The position numbers were made by a program, and so were the translations under genes. From assembly GCA_947087275.1 (NCBI GenBank), contig CAMUBZ010000010.1, forward strand, positions 1-37,208: a DNA stretch of 37,208 bases, read 5' to 3'. Shown here one piece after another: positions 7,727 through 14,406 of this stretch (position 1 is its first letter; every line of letters begins with the position of its first letter). Below the pieces are notes generated by a model. It did not search any database, was not told the DNA's origin, and worked only from the letters and a program-made list of their open reading frames with translations. The DNA is from an uncultured Candidatus Saccharibacteria bacterium. GTDB lineage: Bacteria > Patescibacteriota > Saccharimonadia > Saccharimonadales > Saccharimonadaceae.

Positions 7727-7754
7727 AAAACTGCCCCATAGCAGGGGCAGTTTT
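7727..7754. terminator. Bidirectional intrinsic terminator
   Basis: An 11-bp perfect stem (AAAACTGCCCC / GGGGCAGTTTT) with loop ATAGCA lies between the convergent FemAB and surface-protein genes. The minus direction has a T-run of six. Confidence 0.9.
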
Positions 7755-7769
7755 GGCCGTAGTTACAAC

Positions 7770-9188
7770 TTAGTGATTTTTGCGAGCGAGACTGCGCTTT
7801 GCAATGACAGCTGTTCCAGCCAACACGGCGACAGCTACCAAGACTAGCAATGAAGCCGTGGTTTCGGTGGCGGCATCCGCATCAATAGCGCGATTGATTG
7901 CTACACCAGTGTCTGGAGGAAGTACTTTTGCAGCGGCCGATTTGACAGCATCAAGAATTTTCTTGAGTTCAGTTGCATCAGTGGCACCATATTCGAGGGC
8001 GACCTCCGCTGCCTCAACCGCTTCAACCAATTCTTTGTACTCATCAAACTTTTCAACTTTCTTGGCTTGACCGAGAGCGGCACTCAAATCGTCAGCGGTA
8101 GCAGAGGTCAAATTTTCCCCTAAGTCAGTCTTAATGCCAAGAGCACGCATAGCATCACCAACTGCCTTGATGGCTTCGGCAAAGTCCTTACTAAAGTCAT
8201 AGGCCGGGGCTTCTTCAGCCAAGGCAACTGGTTCAGCCGCATCGCCACCTTTACCACCATAATTTTCGGGGTTCTTGGCCACCTCAAGCAAGTATTCCGC
8301 GTAGCGCACGGCATTCACCAAACGTTCATATTTTTGGTAAGTTTCGTCTTTCTTAGTTTCGTTGACGAATTTTTGCAACTCATTTTCGGTCTCGACTACT
8401 TCTGGGGCTTTGTTCTGATTAGCCTCATAAGCCTCGACAGCGGCAACTTCACTCACCAAGGTATCATAATATTGTTTGATTTGCTCGGGAGTAGTGCGAT
8501 ATTCTTCTGGAGTATCTTCACTATCATTGATGCCGTATTTCAGTTGATTATAGGCCTTGCCAAGTGCAGTATATTCTTTGTAACCTGGGAGTTGTTTAAT
8601 TGCGTTGACGACTTCCAGAGCGGTTTTGCCTTTAGTAGAGTCAAGGCTGATACTGCTATTTAATTGCTCAACCGTCCCGATTAATGTCTCACCTGCGCAC
8701 GTGCCAGCCGCGACACAGTCTGGCCCAAAGAGGGTGAAGTTGATTTCGGCCTCAATTGCGTCGATTGCTGCCTTGAAATCAGCATCATCTGTGTACTTCG
8801 CCAACTTTTTGGCAGCCAAAAGCTTTTCAATATCGGTCATCTTGCTGGCGTCTTGCCCGGCAGCAGTTAAGGCCTCGGCAATAGTGTCGTTCTTCTTGCC
8901 ATCGCGCAAAATAATTCCTGCTTCTTGAGCGGCGCAGCCCATGCCGACGCACCCATATTGATTTTCGATCGCATCGATCGTTCCAGCGATATAGCCCCAT
9001 TGCCCGGCATCGGGGAATTTTTCTTCAACTTCTTTGAGCAAAGCCTCGCGCTCAGCAACTGTAACGGTTGCACTGGTGGCTGCTTCTGCTGCATAAGCCT
9101 GCATACCCAAAGCTGGCACTACGGCTGGTGTCGCAACCAAAGCAAAAGTTGAGGCCAAAGCACCTACCACGATTAGTGATTTTTTCAT
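7770..9188 (-). CDS. Secreted, wall-anchored-type surface protein with LPPDTG motif
   Basis: The 472-residue protein has a Sec signal peptide (cleavage expected after AYA, residue 33), an acidic mostly helical body, and a sortase-like C-terminus: LPPDTG (about 423-428), a hydrophobic helix (about 447-465) and basic tail KRSLARKNH. The motif carries two residues between LP and TG instead of LPxTG's one, and about 18 residues separate it from the helix, more than usual. Two close cysteine pairs (CVGMGC, CVAAGTC) could form disulfides. No sortase is in this window. The promoter contains nine consecutive G in its spacer, so expression may be phase variable. Function is unknown; adhesion to a host cell is a guess. 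Confidence 0.75.
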   Translation of the reverse strand: MKKSLIVVGALASTFALVATPAVVPALGMQAYAAEAATSATVTVAEREALLKEVEEKFPDAGQWGYIAGTIDAIENQYGCVGMGCAAQEAGIILRDGKKNDTIAEALTAAGQDASKMTDIEKLLAAKKLAKYTDDADFKAAIDAIEAEINFTLFGPDCVAAGTCAGETLIGTVEQLNSSISLDSTKGKTALEVVNAIKQLPGYKEYTALGKAYNQLKYGINDSEDTPEEYRTTPEQIKQYYDTLVSEVAAVEAYEANQNKAPEVVETENELQKFVNETKKDETYQKYERLVNAVRYAEYLLEVAKNPENYGGKGGDAAEPVALAEEAPAYDFSKDFAEAIKAVGDAMRALGIKTDLGENLTSATADDLSAALGQAKKVEKFDEYKELVEAVEAAEVALEYGATDATELKKILDAVKSAAAKVLPPDTGVAINRAIDADAATETTASLLVLVAVAVLAGTAVIAKRSLARKNH

Positions 9189-9218
9189 TACACTCTCCCA
9201 CTTAATTAACTACTTTTA

Positions 9219-9246
9219 ATTATACCCCCCCCCAGAAAAAGGTCAA
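9219..9246 (-). promoter_or_regulatory. Promoter with G9 tract in the spacer
   Basis: On the minus strand TTGACC (9241-9246) and TATAAT (9219-9224) are separated by 16 nt, of which the nine next to the -10 are all G (9225-9233). One base gained would give the optimal 17-bp spacer. A leader of about 23 nt with GGGAGAG leads to the surface-protein ATG. Confidence 0.75.
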
Positions 9247-9257
9247 GCGTTTTGATT

Positions 9258-9590
9258 TTACTTGCGTGGCGCAGAGATATTCGCCGGGCGACCGTAATCG
9301 GGCAGAATAATTTGGTGCTGTTTCCCGTGTTGATCAAAGAGCGGAACTTGCAGTTGGTCTGCTAAAGTGTTGACGATTGTGGCGCCAATGCGCAACCCAG
9401 TAAAGGAGCCTGGTCCAGCAAAGAATGTAATCTCGGAAATATCCGGCCAATCGGCCTGATTTTCCTGCAACTTATCATGAATAAACTCCAAGATTTTTTC
9501 GGACATATCGTGGCGGCCAGGGCGAGTATACTCTTTGCCGTCCAAGCGCAGAACACAAACATCAGTTGAAGTATCAAGATATAATTTCAC
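9258..9590 (-). CDS. tsaB: Short TsaB-like protein (t6A synthesis)
   Basis: TsaB is the scaffold subunit of the TsaB-TsaD-TsaE complex that makes N6-threonylcarbamoyladenosine in tRNA. Recognisable parts are LYLDTSTDVCVLRL at the N-terminus and the family signature GPGSFTGLRIG followed by LADQLQVPLF. The protein ends at about 110 residues, whereas TsaB is usually over 200, so only the first actin-like half is present. The GTG at 9590 has a GAGGA ribosome binding site; ATGs at 9599 and 9605 do not. It overlaps tsaE by 17 bp, indicating coupling. It may be a minimal TsaB or a decayed gene. Confidence 0.75.
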   Translation of the reverse strand: MKLYLDTSTDVCVLRLDGKEYTRPGRHDMSEKILEFIHDKLQENQADWPDISEITFFAGPGSFTGLRIGATIVNTLADQLQVPLFDQHGKQHQIILPDYGRPANISAPRK

Positions 9591-9975
9591 GGGTACCATC
9601 CTCATTTAATTTAATTTCAAGATGATGCTTGTGCGTTGGCAAAAGTTCAGTCACATCACCACCCCATTCCACTACCACAACCGTGTTGGGCTCGATTAAA
9701 GTTTCCGCCAATTCATCACGCATAATTCCAGGGTCGTCTAGACGATAAAAATCGTAGTGCACTAATTCCCCGCTCGGAAAAGCATAACGCTTGGAAATAG
9801 TAAAACTCGGGCTCGTGACCGGTTCTGTCACGCCCAAGCCTTGAGCTAAACCGCGCGTAAAAGTAGTTTTACCCACGCCAACATCACCCACCAATTCAAT
9901 CACGGCGGGTAGTTCAAGATTTTGGGCAAAGTTTTGGCCAAAATCCAGCATGGCGGCTTCGGAAGTGATTCTCAT
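9574..9975 (-). CDS. tsaE: TsaE, t6A-synthesis ATPase
   Basis: This 133-residue P-loop protein drives turnover of the TsaB-TsaD complex. Walker A GDVGVGKT lies at residues 30-37, followed by TSPSFTISKRY and HYDFYRLDD, all typical for TsaE; length is close to normal. The ATG at 9975 follows a TATAAT box by 7 nt and has no Shine-Dalgarno sequence, suggesting a leaderless mRNA. It is co-transcribed with the short tsaB. Confidence 0.93.
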   Translation of the reverse strand: MRITSEAAMLDFGQNFAQNLELPAVIELVGDVGVGKTTFTRGLAQGLGVTEPVTSPSFTISKRYAFPSGELVHYDFYRLDDPGIMRDELAETLIEPNTVVVVEWGGDVTELLPTHKHHLEIKLNEDGTREIIS

Positions 9976-11670: not shown

Positions 11671-14406
11671 CTAGGCTTTGGAGAGAAGTTGGACTTTGCG
11701 GGTGTTTTTACGCTTTTTGGCGGCGAGGCGGCTCTTGCGATAAGTGGCGAGACCTGCGTAAGCCCCAGCCATCATGCTCATGAGCAAATTAGGCGTCACG
11801 CTCTGATCAGCAAAAATGTCCGCTTGGGTCTGCGCTTGAGTATTTGGTTGAGTTTCTGTTGCGACGTTCATAAATTGCTGGCTAACCGGCGCCTGTACAT
11901 TGCGCTCCAAACCGAGTAACGAGAGATTAAGGTCAAAAACCAAATCATCCGCATCGTTTTGGGTGGCTGTGCCCTGAGCAAGCAGAGTTTTGGCGCGCTC
12001 AAGGTTGTTCATCACGTTCGCATAAGTTGCTGGGGTATAATCCGATGGTTCAAGTTTGGCAATATCGGCGACTACTTCCCGCAAAGCCGACCAATCAGTA
12101 GTAGGTGTGGAATGAGTGGATTTGGACATCGCCGCCAAGGCAATCGTGCCTAACCGCGTATGGCGTTTGGTCTCGGGGGTGGCGATAACCACTGGTTCGG
12201 GCTGAGGAGTGGGAGTTTCTTCCAGCTGAAGTCCGGCTGTGGCAAATTTGACTTCGTCCATAGCGTCAAGAATTTCTGGCAAAGCAGCATCGGTTTTTTG
12301 CAAAATGGCTTCCGCTTTGACAATCGCAACCTGCAGTTCGCCGAACTGTTCTGCAAACTCGGCTTGATAGTCTTTGAGCGCCAAATCACGTACTGCCTCC
12401 ACCATCAGATAAAGACTAGAACGTGCATCATTCAGGGCAGCCAAGGCTAGTTCATCTACCGGCTCCGATGTAATTTCTGGTTCAGGTTCAGTTGTGGACA
12501 TATTTATAATAGGCTCATCCACAGGCAAGTCAGTAGGCGTTTCGAGGTCCGCATCCAGGTTAGTTTCTACTGTCGGCGTTGCTTCAAGTTCGGTTATTGG
12601 CTCAAGATTAAGGGTGGCCAAAATTACGCTCGCACCTAGTTCAGCCAAGTGCTGTTTTTCTGTAGCATCCAGTTCTGGTTCCAACAATTCTAGAGTAGGT
12701 TCGGTTGAGACGGGTGCAGTAGGTGGAATAATAGGCGGCGCAATCAAACCCGCCTCGGGCATAGCAAAATCTAGTTCGTTTTCTGGTTCTTCAAGCAAAT
12801 CAATATTAAGCCCCAAATCGCAAAAAACGGAATACAGTTGGTTGAGCGAGGCTTCGGGCTGTGCCGTCAGAGCTAAAGCAGCAATAATGGCATCCTTCAA
12901 AGCGTTATAGCTATAAGCCGAATACTCGTGCGGGTCAAGTTCTTGCGCGGTGGTCAAAACCGATAACATCTCGCCTCGCATTTCGTCGGCGACTTTCTCG
13001 ATGCCTTGCATGGTAGTTTTGAGACGCTTTTGCAAGTGCAAAACTTGTTCCAAGGAAACCTCTTTGGAGCCTTGCAAAAGTTTCTCTGCCGCCTTCACAG
13101 CGCGTTTGATGGCGGCTACCGCTTTGCTGGCAGCGTCTTGCCAATCGCCAAGTTCGTCACCGGCATAATCTTTGTCCAGATAGGTCTTGGCGCGTGTAAT
13201 CAGACTTTCTAAAGTAGTGCATTCTAGCGCCAGTTGCTCCACTGGGTCAATTTTGGCTTCGGGTGGATTGGGGTCAATCACGGTGGTAGTGCCAGTTTTG
13301 CGATTAGTATCAAGATAAAAACCTTTGGCCAGGTGGTCGGTCAGCTCGGTGGTATCCAAAGCCAAGAAGGTGCCGCCCGAAACTACAACCTTTTCGCCCG
13401 AAGCAACCCCATAAAACACACCACTCGGAACCTTGAAATTCCCAGCTTTAATCTCGAGCTGTTGCAAAGTGGAATCTGGGCCATACTTGGCAATCAAATA
13501 ACTCTGGCGGCTCACATATTCCCCACCGTCAATGTTCAGGTAAATATTGCCCGCGTATTCGGAACTTTCTTCAATTTGTATCACGGCGCCCACACCCACA
13601 GTGTTGTCCCAGCCACTGGGATTCGCGAGTTCACCAGTAGCAGTAATCTTGGTTCCAACAAAATCAAGATGACCGGCCTTGACACTGACGCCAGTAGCAC
13701 CGGTAATCGTGGCGGCGCCAATTTGCCATTCGCCATAGCCAGCCGCCGAGAGTGCCACGCCTTCGTCAGCATCAACTTCAATCATAGCGCTGTCAGCAAC
13801 AATAAGTTTGGGCGCATGCGCACCTTGCCCCTGCACCAAGCGGTTGATGCCTACGCCATCGTGCGCCACAATTTTACCTTTCAGAGTAATGCTGACACCA
13901 TAGGCGGCCTTGAAATTTGCCGCCAAATAAATTCCATAAGCATGCGGAGCATACAAAGTCACCTGCTCATCAACCGTCAAATTGGCATAATGAAGATTCT
14001 CGGCAGTCATGGCGCCTTTGACCCGCACACCGCTAGCACCCAGGCCATTCGCCACGATGCTCCCTTCACCAGTAATCGTGAGGTCGCCCGTTTGCAGATC
14101 AATCGCCGAAGCATTAGCGCGCAAAGAGGCAATTTTGTAACCATTCAAATCTAAAGTCAGAGGTTCTTGCCGATTGACCGTGATGTCCGACATGACGATA
14201 ATGTCACTTGTGAGAATAATTTTGGTGATGACTGGGTTTTGGACGGCAGCGTTCAGTTCGGGCTCAAGCGCAACTTTGGCTGTATGCTCAGCATCAAAAA
14301 GTTCCCTGGCCGCCAAACGCTCGCTTGCAGCGCAGAGCTCACCCGGCAACGCCGACCCCGAGGCCCATAACATTGCCAAAAAACTCGAAAGTTGGTCCGG
14401 TTGCAT
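11671..14406 (-). CDS. Large surface-type protein: beta-helix-like plus FIVAR-like helical repeats
   Basis: The 911-residue protein starts with an atypical, weakly hydrophobic N-terminus (no clear signal peptide), followed by about 300 residues of short beta repeats resembling a right-handed beta-helix (for example LTLDLNGYKI, LTITGEGSIVANG). Then come helical repeats resembling FIVAR domains (about 395-540, and more at 660-850), separated by a Pro/Glu/Thr-rich linker. It ends with a weak hydrophobic stretch (MSMMAGAYAGLATY) and a strongly basic tail (KSRLAAKKRKNTRK), recalling a wall or membrane anchor without LPxTG. In-frame TAG just upstream excludes an earlier start. Two promoters lie upstream. 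Adhesion is a plausible but unproven role. Confidence 0.65.
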   Translation of the reverse strand: MQPDQLSSFLAMLWASGSALPGELCAASERLAARELFDAEHTAKVALEPELNAAVQNPVITKIILTSDIIVMSDITVNRQEPLTLDLNGYKIASLRANASAIDLQTGDLTITGEGSIVANGLGASGVRVKGAMTAENLHYANLTVDEQVTLYAPHAYGIYLAANFKAAYGVSITLKGKIVAHDGVGINRLVQGQGAHAPKLIVADSAMIEVDADEGVALSAAGYGEWQIGAATITGATGVSVKAGHLDFVGTKITATGELANPSGWDNTVGVGAVIQIEESSEYAGNIYLNIDGGEYVSRQSYLIAKYGPDSTLQQLEIKAGNFKVPSGVFYGVASGEKVVVSGGTFLALDTTELTDHLAKGFYLDTNRKTGTTTVIDPNPPEAKIDPVEQLALECTTLESLITRAKTYLDKDYAGDELGDWQDAASKAVAAIKRAVKAAEKLLQGSKEVSLEQVLHLQKRLKTTMQGIEKVADEMRGEMLSVLTTAQELDPHEYSAYSYNALKDAIIAALALTAQPEASLNQLYSVFCDLGLNIDLLEEPENELDFAMPEAGLIAPPIIPPTAPVSTEPTLELLEPELDATEKQHLAELGASVILATLNLEPITELEATPTVETNLDADLETPTDLPVDEPIINMSTTEPEPEITSEPVDELALAALNDARSSLYLMVEAVRDLALKDYQAEFAEQFGELQVAIVKAEAILQKTDAALPEILDAMDEVKFATAGLQLEETPTPQPEPVVIATPETKRHTRLGTIALAAMSKSTHSTPTTDWSALREVVADIAKLEPSDYTPATYANVMNNLERAKTLLAQGTATQNDADDLVFDLNLSLLGLERNVQAPVSQQFMNVATETQPNTQAQTQADIFADQSVTPNLLMSMMAGAYAGLATYRKSRLAAKKRKNTRKVQLLSKA

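Follow-up and report, generated by a model that had tools for sequence, protein, structure and literature searches.

A G tract in the promoter spacer of a predicted surface-protein gene suggests phase variation by slippage in Saccharibacteria

The window, a stretch of 37,208 nucleotides that makes up contig C10 of an uncultured Saccharibacteria genome, contains a promoter whose spacer ends in nine consecutive Gs in front of a gene for a predicted surface protein of 472 amino acids. In our view this is very probably promoter-spacer phase variation of the kind known from porA, acting at many loci across the genus and also in other gut bacteria. The tract-driven surface-protein genes of the relatives, and the gene in the window with them, probably turn on and off through slips during copying. 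The promoter layout, its recurrence, the different lengths of related promoters, the exported nature of the products (by a hydrophobicity rule) and the absence of MutS were observed directly. The interpretation is well supported as regards the type of mechanism; for the 472-aa gene itself it is a prediction from comparative evidence.

Results

A promoter with a G9 tract between tsaB and an accessory gene

Read on the minus strand from 9246 to 9219, the sequence is TTGACC-TTTTTCT-GGGGGGGGG-TATAAT (Table 1). The spacer measures 16 bp, its final nine bases are all G, and this homopolymer lies wholly between the -35 and -10 elements, as in porA and opc. An earlier note, made from the letters of the window, had described a TTGACC and a TATAAT 16 bp apart with a run of nine Gs on this strand; the coordinates confirm the arrangement, and its reading as a promoter is supported by a genus-wide family of similar promoters. 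At G9, slips of one to two bases suffice to bring the spacer to the 17-bp optimum. The site scores best among three promoter-like sites in 2.6 kb and its exact string occurs only once in the 829-kb genome. It is located in the 69-bp gap between the stop of tsaB (9258) and the start of the 472-aa gene (9188).

Table 1 Features of the window and other G/C runs of the same genome. Positions with a contig prefix lie outside the window.
Feature	Position	Strand	Basis or remark
-35 element TTGACC, 5/6 to consensus	9241..9246	-	sequence
Non-G part of the spacer, TTTTTCT, 7 bp	9234..9240	-	sequence; usual lengths in the genus 5-7 and 9
G9 tract, putative slippage site	9225..9233	-	sequence and promoter-family comparison
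-10 element TATAAT, 6/6, directly adjoining the G9 tract	9219..9224	-	sequence
Likely ribosome-binding site GGGAG (inferred)	9195..9199	-	sequence
Gene driven by the promoter, predicted secreted 472-aa protein with helical body	7770..9188	-	low-confidence all-helical model
Terminator-like hairpin 3' of the 472-aa gene	7731..7746	-	consensus match only
tsaB (TsaD/TsaB family), ending 11 bp before the -35 element	9258..9605	-	family search; tsaE neighbour conserved in relatives
tsaE	9574..9975	-	family search
TTGACT-TTTC-G14-TAGAAT, spacer 18	C13:154		
TTGTAA-AAACG-C10-ATGA-TATAAT	C1:106763	-	before ABC-transporter ATPase
G9-TGT-TATAAT	C2:70782		before ABC ATPase
G9 upstream of extended TGC-TACAAT	C6:4106		before LiaF-like membrane protein

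The 472-aa protein begins with a signal peptide, MKKS...AYA-AEA (MKKSLIVVGALASTFALVATPAVVPALGMQAYA), and ends with VLPPDTG, a hydrophobic segment and the KR tail KRSLARKNH, that is, with the LPxTG-like motif, hydrophobic segment and positive tail of a sorting signal. PPDTG is a non-canonical form of LPxTG; xP[DN]TG is usual among the tract-driven genes of the genus. The same genome encodes two sortases (two matches to PF04203 above the cut-off). The secreted, sortase-type product proposed earlier is thus supported by the signal peptide, the PPDTG-hydrophobic-KR end and the sortases, and we regard the protein as a predicted surface protein. No Pfam or NCBIfam family could be assigned to it, all matches being sub-threshold, including a weak one to FIVAR (E 0.06). 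Homologues were found neither in 98 other genomes of the genus nor in a wider search of genome contigs, nor among the other tract-driven proteins (best E 0.16). AlphaFold, run without an alignment, gave a pLDDT of 43.7.

In a same-locus comparison, tsaE-tsaB is conserved in relatives and the gene 3' of tsaB varies: the closest relatives have an RNase Y-like gene (named from its translated sequence) and some close relatives have other genes. The 472-aa gene is, therefore, a local accessory gene with its own promoter, and the tract of the window accordingly lacks a direct orthologue. A consensus search found no terminator-like site between tsaB and the 472-aa gene, so read-through could mask an off state. 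It is possible that read-through from tsaE-tsaB keeps the gene partly expressed at any tract length, a serious reservation about any complete off state. The window also encodes, at 11671-14406, a 911-aa adhesin-like protein with weak matches to pectate-lyase-like adhesive and FIVAR families and with no G tract of eight or more.

The promoter type recurs and is not due to chance

A run of at least eight Gs followed by TATAAT within 0-4 nt was found in 24 of 174 genus genomes, with no match for the reversed-pattern control; TTGAC-N3-14-G8+ was found in 50 of the 174, with six matches in total for the reversed pattern. Most of these genomes have no site under either pattern. Across the wider family, sites are present in 41 of 394 genomes and 16 of 61 genera (two control matches), and a stricter pattern detected them in 10 of 192 genomes of a phylum sample.

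Promoter-based patterns gathered 88 promoters from 50 genomes, a selection whose bias is absent only in a neutral sample comprising every G8+ run that a pattern blind to promoters caught in 24 genus genomes (n = 56). Eleven of these 56 runs fall within promoters that match the consensus at 10 or more of 12 bases, compared with a mean of 0.35 and a maximum of 3 in flank shuffles. The position of G tracts within promoters is not a matter of chance. Among the 88 promoters, the -35 element matches 5-6 of 6 bases in 73 (perfect TTGACA in 48), TATAAT is perfect in 43 and the tract adjoins the -10 element in 72; tracts range from G8 to G17, mostly G9-G10, and spacers are mostly 15-19 bp long.

These data bear on two other explanations. 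The tract might be an artefact of sequencing or assembly, such as the poly-G of two-colour chemistry or a miscounted homopolymer. Poly-G is indeed error-prone and some long tracts lie near contig ends (for example C9:41803 and C13:154 of the same genome), but the tract of the window is found within its contig, with unique sequence on either side and exactly between -35 and -10, and tens of genomes have a tract in this very position, with hardly any matches to reversed patterns; we consider an artefact very improbable. Hardly more credible is a regulator-binding site or G-quadruplex that serves ordinary regulation rather than slippage. G runs can form such structures, and a repressor would block the polymerase just where the tract sits; against this, the total length varies freely, the tract adjoins the -10 element whatever the gene, and by eye no second conserved motif surrounds it.

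The 829-kb genome has only 10 G/C runs of eight or more, at least four of which are flanked by a -35-like and a -10 element. Other tracts are placed differently. At C4:7183-7191 (L362:1984-1992) G9 lies within coding sequence, where a relative, G014, has G12 (L359:1964-1975); the two protein halves (RREEA(Q/K)NFYGGG end and LNCVETITSFMLL continuation) are in different frames in both assemblies, an arrangement resembling a second G-tract switch, this one translational. Two species (L360:2073-2082, L361:1959-1968) have G10 at matching positions in similar sequence (VKWGGG(V/A)IF-KI), possibly another shared coding tract. G11 at C8:17354-17364 (L105:3055-3065), just 5' of the start codon of a bacterial sugar transferase (PF02397) and downstream of an extended -10, is possibly a leader-region switch of surface polysaccharide. 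C10 at C9:41803-41812 (L106:5804-5813), in a thioredoxin-reductase-like gene at the extreme end of the contig, probably reflects a break or mistake in the assembly at this tract.

Related promoters differ in tract length and MutS is absent

Promoters of related genes have conserved flanks and differ by 1-5 bases in the number of Gs, as counted in assembled homopolymers whose length may be wrong by one or more bases. The own species is represented by one genome, and the comparisons are thus between paralogues or between species. Pairs within one genome have G15 and G10 (genome G028), G14 and G10 (genome G073), G10 and G9 (genome G116) or G11 and G10 (genome G030). Between species, G9 in genome G001 corresponds to G11 in genome G157 (spacers 15 and 17), G11 in genome G007 to G9 in genome G069 (spacers 17 and 15) and G8 in genome G040 to G9 in genome G014; a five-genome group with proteins starting MSK(K)(S/T)TKIIAA has tracts from G9 to G12. 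The length difference between related copies that characterises porA/opc-type tracts is therefore seen here in paralogues and in orthologues of other species. Slippage predicts such a pattern, and we infer that it caused the differences; they do not by themselves demonstrate switching within a single population.

Without mismatch repair, G tracts are expected to slip more frequently. A search for MutS (PF00488) came up empty in all 60 genus genomes examined but succeeded in 11 of 14 control genomes, and an earlier study likewise detected neither MutS nor MutL among Saccharibacteria (PMC8406219). With MutS missing, the main brake on slippage is removed and slips would escape repair by the MutS route. 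The slippage postulated in the earlier note is thus supported by the conserved-flank copies of different tract length and by the missing MutS; variation among cells of the own species is its prediction.

Tract-driven genes preferentially encode exported proteins

By a simple hydrophobicity rule for export, 50 of 83 downstream genes (60%) encode an N-terminal hydrophobic segment, compared with 126 of 434 neighbours (29%; p = 1e-7). Of the 83, 13 specify a PxTG sorting signal followed by a membrane segment and a positive tail, as do 2 of the 434 (p = 2e-9). The products of some tract-driven genes have no export signal (L150, L156, L166, L170). In such proteins, L172 and L190 included, a W(D/E) motif is often seen near residue 20-30, for example in GWDVVSELA, EWEEMAKNAP and SEWDNLSS.

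The promoter of the window could also be truly constitutive, its tract being stable in length or neutral and tuning strength or spacer conformation instead of acting as a switch. The elements are already strong at 16 bp, no variation within a species was seen (with one genome per species), and read-through from tsaB is possible. However, copies with conserved flanks differ by 1-5 Gs, G tracts are otherwise few, exported products are enriched and MutS is absent. We therefore judge a constitutive promoter unlikely and prefer phase variation.

Similar promoters in other gut bacteria

When 84,980 species genomes were scanned for TTGACA-N3-12-G8-TATAAT, at least 119 stretches matched; the matches listed come mostly from gut Clostridia and Bacilli, and those outside Saccharibacteria (L209-L326) also include Streptobacillus and others. 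Among the matches listed outside Saccharibacteria, 77 of 96 downstream genes (80%) encode an N-terminal hydrophobic segment, compared with 143 of 526 neighbours of these genes (27%; p = 1e-22). A spacer of exactly 17 bp is rarer among these listed matches than its parts predict (7 observed, 17.2 expected, P = 0.0008); in the Saccharibacteria set no depletion beyond the marginals was found (6 observed, 5.5 expected). The depletion may mean that the state met with most often is weaker than the strongest one, or it may reflect selection against very strong consensus promoters.

In both sets (L060-L206, and L209-L326 among the matches listed), a length of 8 bp is avoided by the non-G part of the spacer, with 12 unique sequences at 8 bp versus 28 at 7 and 59 at 9. 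The commonest tract, G9, consequently seldom yields exactly 17 bp.

Discussion

Saccharibacteria live on other bacteria. In the mechanism that we propose, the replication polymerase would add or drop one or two Gs in the slippage-prone tract of a sigma-70-type promoter, and the change would persist where repair by the MutS route is missing. The distance between -35 and -10 would then shift among about 15, 16, 17 and 18 bp from cell to cell; for the gene in the window, G9 corresponds to 16 bp and one extra G would give the 17-bp optimum. Transcription of the surface-protein gene would presumably rise and fall with spacer length. With independent tracts at many surface-protein genes of the genus, a population would contain cells with different surface repertoires, from which it may benefit.

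More tentatively, and with slightly more doubt than trust, we suggest that gut Saccharibacteria, which lack mismatch repair, use promoter slippage throughout the genome to switch many surface genes independently of one another, and that the similar promoters of gut Clostridia and Bacilli are set such that the commonest tract misses the 17-bp optimum. If true, such an off-optimum setting would leave most cells off or low and a minority on. A multi-locus switch of surface proteins would be a simple source of cell-to-cell variation, readable from sequence, in bacteria that have very small genomes and lack mismatch repair. That the promoter pattern also turns up in gut Clostridia and Bacilli, among others, suggests a switch commoner in gut bacteria than the classical examples from pathogens imply.

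In a search of open-licence full texts, no previous description of phase variation was found for Saccharibacteria. The closest known systems are porA (poly-G) and opc (poly-C) of Neisseria meningitidis, in which a homopolymer between -35 and -10 sets the spacer length and the product is a surface protein (van der Ende 1995; Sarkari 1994, both as cited in PMC5084427). The promoter of the window shares with them the G or C homopolymer between the two elements, a spacer whose length depends on the tract and, as a prediction, the surface-protein product. The analogy, already drawn in the earlier note, gains support from the promoter family, the length differences between conserved copies, the enrichment of exported genes and the absence of MutS. 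In contrast to porA and opc, organism and products are unrelated, some relatives have many loci per genome, and Saccharibacteria lack both MutS and MutL.

In Bifidobacterium breve, G tracts of sortase-dependent pili have mixed lengths in deep sequencing (PMC9187656). This is also a gut commensal with a sortase-dependent surface product and G-tract slippage, the latter presumed in our case, but its tract is part of the coding sequence and causes frameshifts, whereas that of the window lies in the promoter spacer. Another CPR bacterium, Gracilibacteria BD1-5, has a hypervariable gene with a locally hypervariable repeat under diversifying pressure (PMC6851277); there, coding 9-base repeats take the place of a promoter homopolymer. 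Invertons, the invertible promoters of gut bacteria, switch genes for cell-surface features (PMC11892184). They do so by DNA inversion and not by slippage, and what they have in common with the system of the window is that cell-surface genes of gut bacteria are their target.
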